From a virus, in the IMG/VR virus record IMGVR_UViG_3300030104_003486, positions 1-20,546 of that record: 20,546 nt of DNA; one strand, given 5' to 3'. Made by a program: the position numbers and the translations under genes. Positions 1,149 through 15,510 of the stretch are shown one piece after another (position 1 is the stretch's first letter; every line of letters starts with the position of its first letter). The notes beneath the pieces were generated by a model. It was given only the letters and a program-made list of their open reading frames with translations. It did no database searches and had not been told where the DNA came from.

Positions 1149-1673
1149 TTATTCCCGTTCCTGCCAGAGTCCCTTGTAATACTTTGCTTTCCCCTTCACC
1201 TTTACCATCCTTAACACCTCCTTTCTATTTCCTCCCACACTACTGTAGGATACGTGAACCCATCCTGAATTAGGTCCTTCTGCTTCTCCGGTGATTTTGG
1301 ATACTCTCTGGGGATTATAATTTTCCAGAATTAATTGATCGAATTCGAGGTTATCCCGAATCCATTCTGCCAGTTCCATATTTGAAACCGACTCACTTAT
1401 AATTTCTATATCTGCTGCAGCCGAGGTTCCAGAACAGCAATGTTGTGATTTCTGACTGCCTCCGATCAAAGTATTTAACGGCTCTGACCGGAAACAACTG
1501 TTAATTTTGGTAGGACCGAACTTGTCTCTGACAGGCTGAAGAACCTTTAGTGTCAGTGCTGTTATTCTTGCAACTGCGTTGTTATCTAAATGTTCTTCCT
1601 GGTCAATCCCAGCATGGATTGCACTAGGGCTATAAACCAGTTCATGCAGACTGAAATTCTGGCTTATTCTCAT
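1149..1673 (-). CDS. Endolysin, M15-type peptidase
   Basis: This 174-residue protein resembles the Peptidase_M15_3 family (zinc D-Ala-D-Ala-type peptidases used as phage endolysins), which cut the peptide cross-links of peptidoglycan at lysis. The expected order is present: an N-terminal NFSLHELV segment (6-13), QPVRD (46-50), the SCFRSEPLN block (59-67), GGSQKSQH (71-78), AAADIE (85-90) and GWVHVSY (137-143). The probable zinc ligands are His78, Asp88 and His140. The frame is open further upstream, but I chose the ATG at 1673 because MRISQNFSL matches the usual family N-terminus and lies just after the upstream stop. The spacing between His78 and Asp88 is longer than the usual H-x2-G-x-A-x-D, and two adjacent cysteines (79-80) are unusual. 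There is no signal peptide, so it would need a holin. It is the last gene of the minus-strand block. Confidence 0.85.
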   Translation of the reverse strand: MRISQNFSLHELVYSPSAIHAGIDQEEHLDNNAVARITALTLKVLQPVRDKFGPTKINSCFRSEPLNTLIGGSQKSQHCCSGTSAAADIEIISESVSNMELAEWIRDNLEFDQLILENYNPQRVSKITGEAEGPNSGWVHVSYSSVGGNRKEVLRMVKVKGKAKYYKGLWQERE

Positions 1674-1683
1674 TGCTAACCAT

Positions 1684-1944
1684 TCAGGATTTGTCGGCCA
1701 ACTCAAGGAGGGATTGATGACCATGAGACTTGTCACGATCAATCTCGGCATCAAATGCATCCTGAACTTCTTTAGGCATTTGCTTAAAATGCTTTTGCAG
1801 CATTTCTTTACCGAAATCTGTAGCTTCATCTTTAATGAAACCAACTAGCATGTTTGCCACTTGGGGCAAGATAAGGTTAAGCATGTCTTCCTTTGCTTTA
1901 GGGTTGGGGTTAATAAAGTCATAAAACCATTTAAGTAATTGCAA
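1684..1944 (-). CDS. Small hypothetical protein of the lysis region
   Basis: This is an 86-residue protein beginning with a TTG codon that has AGGA five bases upstream and overlaps the preceding gene by 14 bases. An alternative ATG at 1884 (66 residues) also has an AGGA four bases upstream, so the start is not settled. The N-terminal part (LLKWFYDFINPNPKAKED) and a moderately hydrophobic helix (LNLILPQVANMLVGFI, about residues 22-37) are followed by a charged tail. The hydrophobic helix is amphipathic rather than a clear membrane span. I do not recognise the family. Its position between a holin-like gene and the endolysin suggests a lysis-associated or small late protein, by context only. Confidence 0.6.
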   Translation of the reverse strand: MQLLKWFYDFINPNPKAKEDMLNLILPQVANMLVGFIKDEATDFGKEMLQKHFKQMPKEVQDAFDAEIDRDKSHGHQSLLELADKS

Positions 1945-2281
1945 TTGGTTCCTTGTCGTTGTGTGGTGGAATTTCGTGTTTTTCAGGTTCCTGGGCTAAG
2001 TCACCACCGGATTCAAAATAGAACTTCGCTATGCCAGCGATAATCGGTATAAATGCGCCAATAAGTATATTAAGTAAATCTTTACTTGAGGAAGGTAACT
2101 CGGCAGATGCTCCAAGCATTATATGAACAACATAAGCAAAAATTCCTAAAGCACTTAAAGCAATAGCAAATCTTGCTGCAAACCTAAGCACCTGGATCTT
2201 TTCATTTACTGTAGTTGATTCTTTAACAGGCTTTGGAGGATCAGGTTTTGTAACTGTTGTTACAGTTGTTTCTTTAGCCAT
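1931..2281 (-). CDS. Holin-like two-TM membrane protein
   Basis: This 116-residue protein has two clear membrane segments: about residues 34-57 (FAARFAIALSALGIFAYVVH) and about 69-88 (LLNILIGAFIPIIAGIAKFY). A polar Thr/Pro/Lys-rich N-terminus precedes them and a charged tail follows. This is class II holin topology: two spans, small, and next to an endolysin. Holins oligomerise in the inner membrane and release or activate the endolysin. No family signature is recognised, so the call rests on topology and context. The ATG shares its A with the TAA stop of the 19-codon micro-gene (TAATG), and no Shine-Dalgarno is visible. Its translation probably depends on ribosomes finishing the micro-gene, which would tie the two products in stoichiometry. 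Confidence 0.65.
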   Translation of the reverse strand: MAKETTVTTVTKPDPPKPVKESTTVNEKIQVLRFAARFAIALSALGIFAYVVHIMLGASAELPSSSKDLLNILIGAFIPIIAGIAKFYFESGGDLAQEPEKHEIPPHNDKEPIAIT

Positions 2282-2340
2282 TAGTCAATTATTATATATG
2301 CCCAGATTATTGTTAATACCCCAATAATAATTAGTTCCAT
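2281..2340 (-). CDS. 19-residue hydrophobic micro-gene
   Basis: A complete ATG-to-TAA frame of 20 codons encodes MELIIIGVLTIIWAYIIID, a single membrane-span-length peptide with an acidic residue near each end. It fits exactly between two membrane-protein genes. Its ATG overlaps the upstream TAA (TAATG at 2338-2342), and its own TAA overlaps the downstream ATG (TAATG at 2279-2283). Without it, the space between the flanking genes would be the only sizeable minus-strand gap in the block. The exact double coupling and near-pure hydrophobic content argue for a real gene. It could be a pinholin- or antiholin-like lysis regulator, a small partner of the flanking membrane proteins, or merely a leader that carries ribosomes to the holin-like gene. 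No homology is claimed. Confidence 0.6.
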   Translation of the reverse strand: MELIIIGVLTIIWAYIIID

Positions 2341-2681
2341 TATTTACTCATTAAAGCTGATGCCATTCCTTGAATTGTATCTGCTAATCGTTCATTACTT
2401 TTAGTTACATCTTTATTTGAGATAGTTAAATTGCTAATAGCTTCAGCAAAATGCTCATTTCTTTGGTTTTGTTCTTTAATTACATCTATAAGCCTTGAAT
2501 CACCTTCCGAATCCTTATTCTCCCACCTTACTATTTCATCCCTGTGAGCCTGTTGAGTCTTCATTATGTAGTAGAAACAGAATCCAATAATTACTGCTGG
2601 CAGTCCTATTCTTTCCACTAACATCATTACTTGATCTAGTTCCATTATAGACTCTGGTGAAGGAGGATGATGTCCACTCAT
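2340..2681 (-). CDS. Single-TM coiled-coil protein, holin/BhlA-like or spanin-like
   Basis: This 113-residue protein has one membrane segment at about residues 24-40 (RIGLPAVIIGFCFYYIM). A long hydrophilic helix rich in Glu, Asn, Lys and Ser follows (about 41-110), probably a coiled coil. The arrangement resembles BhlA/UviB-type holin-like proteins, whose N-terminal span is followed by a charged helix. An inner-membrane spanin component is an alternative. The start overlaps the end of the preceding gene as ATGA (2678-2681); an internal ATG at residue 13 is also possible. It begins the probable lysis cassette: this gene, the 19-residue micro-gene, the two-span protein, a small unknown and the endolysin. 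Membrane topology is seen; lysis function is inferred from position. Confidence 0.6.
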   Translation of the reverse strand: MSGHHPPSPESIMELDQVMMLVERIGLPAVIIGFCFYYIMKTQQAHRDEIVRWENKDSEGDSRLIDVIKEQNQRNEHFAEAISNLTISNKDVTKSNERLADTIQGMASALMSK

Positions 2682-10561: not shown

Positions 10562-12016
10562 TTACAGAAACGGGATTAAATTCTCGTCTGTTTCAATGGT
10601 TTGTTCTGGTGTCATAGGTGCTTCAAACAAGAAGCTAAAGGTATGCTGATTGATACTAAAATATTCTTTGATCTTGGTAGTTCTATCCCCGTGCTTGGCT
10701 AATTCATTGTTTATGTAATCTCTTATTTGGTCATCTGTTGGGTCTGAAATATATCGTTCACTTTCATACAAAATATCACCTCTGTCCTTTCTAAAATGCT
10801 CAATCATTGGCTTTAAAACAAAATCGACTTGGGCTTTACTAAAATTTTGCATTGCCCCTAAAAGAAATCCTTTAAAAATATCTGTTTTGGGAAACTGCTG
10901 GCCTGACAACGTATCTGGTCTTATAGTCGGAGCTTCATTGTAAGTTCCTAAATATTCTTTTTCATGGGTCATTAAATCTTCCCAAATAGATGAAAACTTG
11001 TTCCCTTTTGTTTCTTCTATCTGATGAAGACCACTTACAATTTCTGCTGAAAGCGACATTCTTTGTGCTTCATTCCATGGGATGTAGGCTGGTTCTCCAT
11101 TAATAAGTAAGTCACCGAGTACATTTAAAGGAAGGTAATCATTTGGTAAAGGATACCAATCTTCTTGTTCTTCATATTCTCTAAGAACCAGTTTCCAGCG
11201 GTTCCCGTCTTCTGCTAATACAGCATCAACTTGTATTGTCCCTCTGTTTTTAAATGCTTCTTCAAGAAACATTTGTTTTTGTTGAGTGGTTAATCGTTCT
11301 GAACCTAATAGATCAAATTGTTCTGGTTTATATTTCATCAAGGTTTCAACAACGGATCTTTCTGCTCCAGCTACGACTTGGTTCCCTGTAATCCCATACA
11401 TTCCAGCAACTTTTTTAGGCAGTCCATGATGCGCTCCAGATGAATCATTTCTGCCTGTAACCATAAACCCGTAGAGACTGTTTACTGATTTTTGAATAGC
11501 TTGATGACTATCGTATGCCGTATTTTGTTTGTGATAATTAGCAAGTTGAGTAACAGCATCCATGTGCATCACTCGTTCTTCTGGTTTATTTAACAAATGC
11601 CATGCAGATGAATATTCTGTGAGGTACGATTGCACATCTTTTTTATCTACAACTAATCCAGATGCAGGATCTAAATGCTTTGCTCCGAAAAGATCCCTTT
11701 TAGTAGTAGGCTCAACAAGGTCCCACAGCATATTAAGGGCAAAATGATAATGATCCCCATTAGCTTTAAACACTTGACCACGGGCATCTTGATCCATTTC
11801 TGCAAGTCTTTGATTCCCTTGCCATCTAAGGTTTTTACTTTGAAATAAACTAAATACATTGCCGTAAGTATCGATTGTTGCATTTGGGCTTTTAAGATCA
11901 TCCAGTTGTGAATTGGTTGTAGGTTCAGGTATCCCATGTTGCTCAATAACACCTATAAGCGGTGGATGCTTTGCCAGCAATTGCCCAATATTGTCGTAAT
12001 GATATTTAGGATTCAT
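10562..12016 (-). CDS. Hypothetical protein, probable internal virion component
   Basis: This 484-residue soluble protein has no membrane segment and no family I recognise. It is helix-rich, with many aromatic and His residues in the first half (for example the HYHFALNMLWDLVEP region at about 88-102). An acidic/aromatic stretch (REYEEQEDWYPLPNDYLPL) lies near the middle. The start overlaps the stop of the nuclease-fused protein gene as ATGA. It lies between two proteins that I place in the DNA-ejection set, so I infer that it belongs to it. I looked for a lytic transglycosylase catalytic block (E-S followed by a GLMQ-type motif) and did not find one. Confidence 0.5.
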   Translation of the reverse strand: MNPKYHYDNIGQLLAKHPPLIGVIEQHGIPEPTTNSQLDDLKSPNATIDTYGNVFSLFQSKNLRWQGNQRLAEMDQDARGQVFKANGDHYHFALNMLWDLVEPTTKRDLFGAKHLDPASGLVVDKKDVQSYLTEYSSAWHLLNKPEERVMHMDAVTQLANYHKQNTAYDSHQAIQKSVNSLYGFMVTGRNDSSGAHHGLPKKVAGMYGITGNQVVAGAERSVVETLMKYKPEQFDLLGSERLTTQQKQMFLEEAFKNRGTIQVDAVLAEDGNRWKLVLREYEEQEDWYPLPNDYLPLNVLGDLLINGEPAYIPWNEAQRMSLSAEIVSGLHQIEETKGNKFSSIWEDLMTHEKEYLGTYNEAPTIRPDTLSGQQFPKTDIFKGFLLGAMQNFSKAQVDFVLKPMIEHFRKDRGDILYESERYISDPTDDQIRDYINNELAKHGDRTTKIKEYFSINQHTFSFLFEAPMTPEQTIETDENLIPFL

Positions 12017-15000
12017 TGACCACTCGCAGCTTGTTCTAGTTGTTGAGAATGTTTACCAGCACCAAAATGTTTCATGTAACCGGAATAACCATTTCTTATT
12101 AACCATTCTTGAAGCATAATTTTTTCGTCAATCCAGACATAAGCTAAACTCCTCCCGTACTGACCCTTTCCAAATATTTCCAATCTTATTTTACTTTTGC
12201 TTAATAGATCAGTTACTGCTTTTGCAGCTTTTTCTCCTTCTGGAGTTCCAAGTTCTGGAGTATCGACGTTGGCAAGCCTTATTCTTTGATCTCCAATAAT
12301 TAATGTGTCTCCGTCAATTACTCTTTGTGTTTGATAAAATTTGCTTTGTTGTATGTTCTTTTCGTCATGCACCTGACCTGCTTCTAGTTTTAATAATGCA
12401 TCGTCAACGGCAGTAGCATTAGGTTCTTTCTGAAGTCTCTCAATCCTTGCTTTTGCAATGTTTTCAAAAGGATTAAATACAGTTAATTTATTTTCATCCC
12501 CTTTGGCATTTTTAAAAAGATTATCAATGACATCTTGAACAGCAACGTCCGTAGGCAACAAAATCGCTTCTTTAAGACCTTTGGAAACTTCGTATGCATA
12601 TTCATTAAGATCATCAAAAGTGACGATGTTTGCTCCAAGTCTGGTTTCTAGGGTTTGTCCCTCATTATCCTTTTGTAATAAAGGATTCCCTTGTTCTGTA
12701 TCAGGATTAAATATTTTGGTCTGAAGCCAATGCGAGTAATTGGTTAAGTGATTACCTAAATCGACACTGCTGGTTATGTAATTTGGAGTAGCAAGATCCC
12801 ATTGGTTATCAGCAATTCGGTCAGATTGAGCAAAATCATCTCTTTTCATTAAGGGATATTTTTCTCTTAATTTTTCATAACCATCTTTTTGACTTCTGAT
12901 TGCTCGATATTTTTCCCATTTGTTGTGAGCAAAGTTGACTAGGCTATCGGATTGCTCTTTTGTCCTTAACTGTCTCCTGCGTGTTTTGACTCCTGATCGT
13001 AGACGATAGAACCATCCAGGAACCTTTCCGTCTGGGAATAAATCTTCACGTTCATTCAGTTGTTCCATAATCCCACCCATTTGGTTTGAATGGGTTGCTT
13101 GGTCTGCCAGTTCGCTGATACGTCCAGAAAAAGCACTATCTGCATCGTTATCAGGCTGAGACAAACGATCTGTAAGGTTATCTTGTGTTGCTTTAAGACT
13201 TCCTTCTAACAGTAATTGCTGAACTCTGGTTACGTCACCTTTGTCGTCATCTGTAACTTTTAGTATGTCTAAGGATCTTCTTACTGAATCAATTCCCTGC
13301 TGATCTGTTACATTTCTAATTGCTTGCTCTAATCCTGTGTAATTGACGTTTTGCTGTTTAGCATTTTGGTTCGATTCTTTGGTTTCAATCCGGTCTTTTA
13401 AACCAGTTTCCATTCTCTGAAGAGTAGTATTCAGTTCTTCAGCATTGACACGATCCTGGATTAAGGTTTCGACCTGTGCTTTTGCAATTTGAAAGTCTTC
13501 TATGGTTTCTGCTTCAAGTGCTTTTTGAATAATCTTCTGGAAATTTTCAGCATCTTGTTGGTTCTCAAATTTGGCATCCAACTCAATCTGTTTGAGTCCT
13601 CTAATTCCTCTAAGATATTCTTTCTGAAACTCGGTCAAATCCAACCCATTGATGTCATCTTCTGTCATCAAGGATTTGCTGTTTTTAGTTTGCTGAATCT
13701 GATTTCGTTGCTTTAACTGGAGCAGTTCTTGACCCTCTAATATTTTTCTATCTTCAGTCGCTTTTTCTTTTTGCTCAAAAGATAGTTTCAATCCATTTAA
13801 TGTTGCTAACTGGTCCTGATGATCCGCAAAACGGATGGATTCAGGTCTTTTTTCAAGACCTTCAATCATTTTTTGAACGCCACTTGATGAAGTGACTAAG
13901 GAAAGGTTTTTACGGAAGGAAGCTAAAGTTCCCTGACGGGCAGTTTCTTTAAAATCTCCTTTAGCTTGAAGATAGAAAGACTGGAGATCACCAGGACTGG
14001 CTAATTTAAAATTTTGTACTAATTCATTCTCTGCAAGTTCACCAAGGTCATCATCAGAAATAACTTTGGCAGTATTTTTATCAACAACTTTTTCGTATGT
14101 TTCAAGAAACGTCTGCTGATTTGCTTCATCTGATAAAAAATTACTGAGATAACGGGAGCTTTTCTGATTATTTCGGAGTTGGTTTTTGTTACCCAGAAAA
14201 CCACGAAGACGGATCTTATCCAATTCTTCCATATCCGAATTGCCATTAATCCGTCCCAGCACTGTGTTATAGTCCCAATTATCCTTATTTAGGACATTCT
14301 CTATCTTTCCTGTTTCTTCAAGTGCTCGTCTCTGTTTTAAAGATTCTTCACTTTGAATGTATTGTTGAACAATGCCTATGGCACTTTTAAGTCGTTGATC
14401 ATTTTTAAAAAGCTTTTTAACAGCATCTAAATCAACAATGGTGTTGCCGTTATCAACTTTTACTAGACTTCTAAAAACCGAACTGTTCTTTAGATTCACC
14501 TCTAATCGGAGAAGTTCCCGATTCTGTAAATAATTTGTATTTTTGTTTTTTAATGCTGTGTGCAGTTTTTCTTTATTTTCGGCACTTTGAATGCTGTATG
14601 CAGGAGTGGTTTCATTTAATCTGTCAGAAATGTCACTTGGAAGGACATTAGGATTATCAATTAATTCAACAAGACTGTCATAGGCTGCTTTTTTATCGGT
14701 TTCCGCATGCATGTGCCATTGGTCAAAAAGCTCCAGGGGATCGGCTCCTGGGAAACTCGCCTGGACTGATTTGAATGTTTTCCTTGCCCACACTTTTGGA
14801 TTATTGCGAAACGCCACAATTGCACGGGTTCTTTGAACCTTATCTGCTAAAATCCTAAGTTTGCTATTATAAACCTGCTTTCCTACGGCTCCGTCATTTT
14901 TCAAAGGGCCAAAAGTATTTTGGAAATCAGCAGTATAAGTCTTTACATCAACATCCTGTCCCGTTAGCACTCTCTGCATAGCATCGTCTGCTAATCTTTT

Positions 15001-15510
15001 TACTTCAGTATTGATCAGAACATTGATGCGATCCGTGCGTTCCTGCATCGTTGCACCAATGGCCTGTTTAATCATTTTGCTTTGATAAGCCTTTGCATGA
15101 TTTTTCAGTTTCCGATTTAGCCGATCACTATCTGAATATTTTATTTCTTTACTCCAAGGTCCAGTATGTCCGTCACTTTGACCTAGAAAATAGTCTCTGA
15201 CTGAAGTGTGGTTTAATTTTTCAAAACCATAATTTGGTAATTCATCAAATCTCCAAGATTCATAATCCAAGTCCATTTGTTCTTCCATGGATTGTTTCTG
15301 TTCCTGGAACTCAAGGTCTTCATTTGATTTTTGTATTTTGGCAGCAACAGGTCCAAGCTTTGCGAATACTCCTTCCAGGTTTTCAAACAAGGTTGCCGTT
15401 GCCTTATTTGCACCAAAGTCTGTTTCTCCTTGAGGTACTTGGGTCTGAGGGGCTTGCATCATTTGAGTCTGCCCCTGCGGTCTTTGGAAGTATTGTCTTG
15501 GGATTATCAT
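12013..15510 (-). CDS. Internal virion protein with C-terminal SNase-type nuclease
   Basis: This is a 1165-residue protein. The N-terminus (about 1-40) is Gln/Pro-rich. The long middle (about 50-1050) is charged, Gln-rich and helical, as in T7 gp15-type ejection proteins. Residues about 1060-1150 form a staphylococcal-nuclease-like (thermonuclease) domain: RVIDGDTL (1063-1070), RIRLANVDTPE (1076-1086) and QYGRSLAYV (1117-1125). By motif alignment Asp1068, Arg1078, Asp1083, Glu1086 and Arg1120 match the SNase active-site residues Asp21, Arg35, Asp40, Glu43 and Arg87, so the domain looks catalytically intact. It would hydrolyse DNA or RNA phosphodiesters with Ca2+. The start shares its A with the upstream TAA (TAATG), with no Shine-Dalgarno visible. 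Family of the N-terminal part is inferred from position and composition; the nuclease call is strong. Confidence 0.8.
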   Translation of the reverse strand: MIIPRQYFQRPQGQTQMMQAPQTQVPQGETDFGANKATATLFENLEGVFAKLGPVAAKIQKSNEDLEFQEQKQSMEEQMDLDYESWRFDELPNYGFEKLNHTSVRDYFLGQSDGHTGPWSKEIKYSDSDRLNRKLKNHAKAYQSKMIKQAIGATMQERTDRINVLINTEVKRLADDAMQRVLTGQDVDVKTYTADFQNTFGPLKNDGAVGKQVYNSKLRILADKVQRTRAIVAFRNNPKVWARKTFKSVQASFPGADPLELFDQWHMHAETDKKAAYDSLVELIDNPNVLPSDISDRLNETTPAYSIQSAENKEKLHTALKNKNTNYLQNRELLRLEVNLKNSSVFRSLVKVDNGNTIVDLDAVKKLFKNDQRLKSAIGIVQQYIQSEESLKQRRALEETGKIENVLNKDNWDYNTVLGRINGNSDMEELDKIRLRGFLGNKNQLRNNQKSSRYLSNFLSDEANQQTFLETYEKVVDKNTAKVISDDDLGELAENELVQNFKLASPGDLQSFYLQAKGDFKETARQGTLASFRKNLSLVTSSSGVQKMIEGLEKRPESIRFADHQDQLATLNGLKLSFEQKEKATEDRKILEGQELLQLKQRNQIQQTKNSKSLMTEDDINGLDLTEFQKEYLRGIRGLKQIELDAKFENQQDAENFQKIIQKALEAETIEDFQIAKAQVETLIQDRVNAEELNTTLQRMETGLKDRIETKESNQNAKQQNVNYTGLEQAIRNVTDQQGIDSVRRSLDILKVTDDDKGDVTRVQQLLLEGSLKATQDNLTDRLSQPDNDADSAFSGRISELADQATHSNQMGGIMEQLNEREDLFPDGKVPGWFYRLRSGVKTRRRQLRTKEQSDSLVNFAHNKWEKYRAIRSQKDGYEKLREKYPLMKRDDFAQSDRIADNQWDLATPNYITSSVDLGNHLTNYSHWLQTKIFNPDTEQGNPLLQKDNEGQTLETRLGANIVTFDDLNEYAYEVSKGLKEAILLPTDVAVQDVIDNLFKNAKGDENKLTVFNPFENIAKARIERLQKEPNATAVDDALLKLEAGQVHDEKNIQQSKFYQTQRVIDGDTLIIGDQRIRLANVDTPELGTPEGEKAAKAVTDLLSKSKIRLEIFGKGQYGRSLAYVWIDEKIMLQEWLIRNGYSGYMKHFGAGKHSQQLEQAASGQ

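Follow-up and report, generated by a model that had tools for sequence, protein, structure and literature searches.

A 19-codon optional micro-gene under purifying selection between two membrane-protein genes of a probable phage lysis cluster

Phage genes as short as 19 codons fall below what ordinary gene finders report and are normally dismissed. We asked what should be made of such a frame fitted exactly between two membrane-protein genes in a 20.5-kb virus fragment (here called the window, meaning the whole stretch of DNA that was analyzed): does it encode a peptide that is kept by selection, and if so, what might that peptide do? The coding signal described below comes from comparative data. 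The source phage is marine and podovirus-like. We found no relative of either flanking protein among the named phages of the phage collection, and named-phage matches were confined to the tail tube protein and a short stretch of the endolysin (P-SSP7). For the tail tube protein, identity was about 33%, with HTVC010P-type pelagiphages among the best named relatives.

The micro-gene shares one base with each of its neighbors

The original prediction, made from the window alone, described an ATG-to-TAA frame of 20 codons at 2281-2340 with TAATG at both ends. It omitted the strand, which is minus, and was otherwise correct in every detail.

2281..2340, minus strand: micro-gene MELIIIGVLTIIWAYIIID, 19 codons plus stop, from a reading of the sequence
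2338..2342, minus strand: upstream TAATG joint, where the upstream gene's stop and the micro-gene's start share one base
2279..2283, minus strand: downstream TAATG joint, where the micro-gene's stop and the downstream gene's start share one base

The ATG of the micro-gene occupies 2340-2338 and its TAA 2283-2281, while the upstream gene stops with TAA at 2342-2340 and the downstream gene starts with ATG at 2281-2279. Together with the G that follows, each joint reads TAATGG, a direct repeat with copies at both ends of a 59-bp unit. The product, MELIIIGVLTIIWAYIIID, has one predicted membrane helix and a Kyte-Doolittle mean of 2.17; both of its ends are acidic, and it has no basic residues.

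Three other readings of the region were tried and rejected. The RNA folded no better than shuffled sequences did (z = +1.1), which speaks against an RNA element. The region held fewer promoter-like matches than its shuffles, leaving no case for a dedicated promoter. The peptide matched phrog_502 at E = 0.11, too weakly to be assigned to that family.

Eight copies of the frame bear the mark of selection on the peptide

Seven more IMG/VR contigs, no two of them sharing an IMG/VR metagenome number, have the 19-codon frame at this junction, giving eight copies with the window. A degenerate DNA scan of IMG/VR for the peptide recovered exactly those seven contigs and no others. In a length-relaxed pattern scan of IMG/VR, the family appeared nowhere else among the matches listed, which were mostly chance matches. 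All eight copies, at base identities as low as 83%, have 19 codons and are free of indels and internal stops; their consensus carries at least one stop in each of the five other frames.

The copies vary at 15 columns, namely, eight third positions, five first positions, and two second positions. The 15 substitution types include nine synonymous ones (one of these being a change of the stop from TAA to TGA, seen once), against 4.8 expected at random (P = 0.012). The remaining six are conservative, being exchanges within I/V/L/M or F/Y. Under random placement, the probability of seeing only synonymous or conservative changes is 2e-5. Both tests take the types to be independent of one another and draw on few data, eight copies of 60 bases. 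In 26 of the 28 copy pairs, dN was lower than dS, and dS was zero in both exceptions. Judged from these substitutions, the micro-gene is conserved by selection acting on the peptide. This agrees with the claim in the original prediction that such a frame is unlikely to be an accident, and the alignment of the junction across relatives that it had suggested showed conserved length and hydrophobicity along with the synonymous excess. Frame-breaking indels or stops with the flanks kept, named in advance as the evidence that would speak against a gene, were sought among the relatives; none was found, only clean absence.

AT-rich sequence readily gives Ile-rich frames, and most relatives lack the unit, both of which would suit an accidental frame or the remains of a gene in decay. 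Eight copies of equal length, free of indels and internal stops and with a biased pattern of substitution, nevertheless make this the least probable of the explanations that we weighed, and we give it hardly any credence.

Comparative genomics has found other short conserved phage open reading frames that standard annotation missed (PMC11323111; small-protein catalogue, PMC11364881), and those genes were likewise recognized through selection on the protein sequence. The micro-gene resembles them in having both a frame and a length conserved in relatives (eight copies) and purifying selection on its amino acid sequence (P = 0.012 and 2e-5). It differs in that 19 codons is near the short end and in that its unit comes and goes with start-stop coupling intact.

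The 59-bp unit is optional

We scanned IMG/VR with each flanking protein and obtained 138 loci, which gave 74 distinct junctions at which each flanking gene was readable. The micro-gene was present in eight of these, 54 were direct joins without an insert, and 12 held other inserts. One locus without the unit (L034) and one with it (L036) have identical bases at 97% of positions downstream and 90% upstream, so that the former presents a clean empty site. L006, the nearest relative of the window as judged by the downstream gene, has another kind of insert in this position. Trees of the flanking genes imply about six presence changes each, and well-supported branches force at least five for the downstream gene and at least six for the upstream gene. 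By this reckoning, the 59-bp unit moves, or is lost, often.

Since TAATGG stands at both ends of the unit, gain or loss affects neither the flanking genes nor the coupling between them. The boundaries of the unit are plain from the geometry; the process itself we can only propose. One tentative and rather doubtful possibility is that the TAATGG stop-start joints are exchange points, at which recombination between copies would precisely add or drop a lysis-modulating 19-residue peptide with the coupled translation of the neighbors undisturbed, the slot being a hot spot for unrelated micro-genes. Whatever its route, a unit this precise that comes and goes between two coupled genes supplies natural pairs with and without the peptide.

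The same junctions bear on a second idea in the original prediction, that of a ribosome relay to the holin-like downstream gene, in which the frame would merely couple the translation of its neighbors and the peptide would be irrelevant. The TAATG joints are perfect at both ends of the frame, and coupling at overlaps is well established (PMC6728339). However, a one-base TAATG-type overlap was present in 33 of the 54 direct joins, which means that 33 of the 74 junctions already unite the two genes in this way without the unit, and the amino acids are conserved beyond what the frame alone would need. Because coupling is present without the unit and the residues are conserved, the relay is disfavored, and we consider it very improbable.

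The flanking genes suggest a lysis cluster

The genes around the micro-gene were as follows.

2340..2681, minus strand: upstream gene, 113 aa, BhlA/UviB-like holin candidate, with weak family matches only
1931..2281, minus strand: downstream gene, 116 aa, holin-like two-helix hairpin, with membrane helices at 38-56 and 69-87
1684..1944, minus strand: 86-aa gene, next in the conserved order, with no membrane helix at the threshold used
1149..1760, minus strand: M15 peptidase endolysin with a provisional start, its frame open to 1844 and homology in relatives beginning near 1757

The order of upstream gene, micro-gene, downstream gene, 86-aa gene, and M15 endolysin is common to the relatives that are long enough to show it.

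The upstream protein has a hydrophobic membrane helix at 18-36 followed by one long helix; its structure model (pLDDT 83) places helices at 15-25 and 27-112. As modeled, this is the architecture of BhlA, an N-terminal helix and then a charged helical tail. It is this neighbor, not the micro-gene, that we liken to BhlA/UviB (PF10960, phrog_2429, phrog_4898), on the basis of a short N terminus, one helix, and a long charged helix. Among its homologues, the best match to phrog_2429 had an E value of 7e-4 and the best to phrog_4898 (holin) an E value of 0.003. The likeness has a limit in that the score against Pfam Holin_BhlA was 15.1 bits, below the curated gathering score of 22.6; Holin_BhlA matches were seen for 4 of 25 homologues, with a best E value of 0.023. 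The downstream protein is highly conserved and matches phrogs that are mainly families of unknown function, and its structure model is of low confidence (pLDDT 63). For neither flanking protein did any family match exceed a curated holin cut-off. Gene content and order nonetheless suggest that the neighborhood is probably a lysis cluster whose holins are candidates.

Comparable arrangements are known. In F1 mycobacteriophages, deleting either LysF1a or LysF1b alters lysis timing (PMC13056207), and both there and in Gordonia phages (PMC9671378) several small membrane proteins adjoin the endolysin, as they do here. The likeness drawn here is one of arrangement: LysF1a has 88 aa and the hosts are actinobacterial, whereas the peptide described here has 19 aa and is optional.

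Unrelated inserts occupy the same slot

The 12 junctions with other inserts held a 28-aa Cys-rich open reading frame (three junctions), a 37-aa coiled coil (three), both of these stacked (one), a 53-aa open reading frame (two), a cell wall hydrolase open reading frame (two), or a NifU-like gene (one). The 28-aa product carries the pattern CPECHSYPC.C. These three kinds of small frame were found in L006, L046, L091, L014, L103, L104, L116, L016, and L086, with L014 being the locus in which the 28-aa and 37-aa frames are stacked. The longer inserts were as follows.

L060:2548-2997: cell wall hydrolase open reading frame in the slot (Hydrolase_2, E = 1.3e-20)
L051:997-1383: open reading frame in the slot closely similar to the L060 hydrolase, for which Hydrolase_2 was tested
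L070:1153-1530: NifU-like Fe-S scaffold gene in the slot

The hydrolase of L051 and L060 is possibly a second lysis enzyme.

In seven more distant contigs, the downstream gene is immediately preceded by a one-helix open reading frame of 27 to 31 aa whose product shows the pattern Y.PL......T(Y/F)..LDL.

L265:1410-1502: 27-31-aa one-helix open reading frame, found in the same slot in L268, L269, L272, L273, L274, and L277

Four members of this distant group that keep the downstream gene (L266, L267, L270, and L271) lack the frame. To test whether the 27-31-aa family is homologous to the 19-aa one, we aligned their profiles, and the score was no better than that of column shuffles (P = 0.41), a weak test for sequences this short. 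As there was no sign of relatedness, one-helix peptides may have reached the slot twice.

Position alone is no proof of a role in lysis, given that the NifU-like, Cys-rich, and coiled-coil inserts are not lytic looking. That the slot also accepts such inserts gives rise to the main rival explanation, in which the micro-gene is an accessory gene in a general late-gene slot and its peptide targets the host or rival phages, for instance by superinfection exclusion or host membrane takeover. Besides the unrelated accessory frames, including the NifU-like one in L070, the repeated gain or loss of the unit and its absence from most relatives are consistent with this view. Against it, a place with a membrane gene on either side, a short way ahead of the endolysin, fits lysis better, as do the recurring one-helix frames and the cell wall hydrolase found in the slot. 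We judge an effect on host or competitor to be rather unlikely.

A possible accessory modulator of holins

The reading that we favor, with about even confidence, is that the micro-gene encodes a real, translated, optional 19-residue peptide that would lie in the inner membrane as one helix, belong to the small-gene slot of the probable lysis cluster, and act as an accessory holin modulator. A role in the timing of lysis is plausible from the position of the gene and the predicted topology of its product.

In this scheme of a holin modulator, ribosomes would end the upstream gene, restart at the overlapping ATG, and make the peptide; they would then stop and restart on the downstream two-helix gene. 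The TAATG geometry of both joints is suited to this, and restart of translation has been shown elsewhere at overlapping gene pairs, for which coupling is well established (PMC6728339). The peptide would enter the membrane as one helix, acidic at either end, simultaneously with the neighboring holin candidates, and would alter when or how these open the membrane. If it does tune lysis, the peptide would be among the smallest known lysis modulators and would offer a tractable test of the control that a single short helix can exert.

Phage 21-type pinholins have two helices, about 70 residues, and dual starts. Like these pinholins and their antiholins, small membrane proteins by which phages time lysis, the micro-gene peptide is small and of predicted membrane type, and a peptide of their type was one of the two inferences in the original prediction. 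Its view of a coding membrane micro-gene in a lysis-type neighborhood has held up; the assignment to the pinholins has not, as the peptide has 19 residues and one helix at most, with one ATG in the frame in the window.

A closer match in size is IbsC, a type I toxin of 19 aa with a single hydrophobic helix (PMC8309996). This equal length and the very high hydropathy raise the alternative of a toxic one-helix peptide that would depolarize the membrane alone, in the manner of an IbsC-like toxin or a minimal holin. Toxins of the Ibs kind are paired with an antisense RNA antitoxin and are toxic when induced. The comparison made here extends to length and hydropathy: IbsC belongs to a chromosomal toxin-antitoxin locus, whereas the micro-gene is in a phage late gene cluster and its product has two acidic ends and no basic residue. 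Most relatives do without the micro-gene, so it is not needed for lysis. A toxin of this kind seems to us improbable, and we prefer the modulator.

Additional observations at the locus

Several minor features accompany these results. In the product of the upstream gene (2340-2681, minus strand), a variable N terminus leads to an invariant internal Met13-Glu14, and this Met13 is possibly a second site of initiation of the kind used by dual-start holins. Around 1684-1760, within 1149-1944 on the minus strand, the 86-aa gene shares some 75 bases with the endolysin frame. In the genome collection, one locus (L148) holds a relative of the downstream gene with 73% identity; its contig is filed under a Woesebacteria MAG and is more likely a co-binned phage contig. 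Elsewhere in the window, a late protein of 1165 aa (12013-15510, minus strand) has an endonuclease-like domain at its end (phrog_452, residues 1044-1147).
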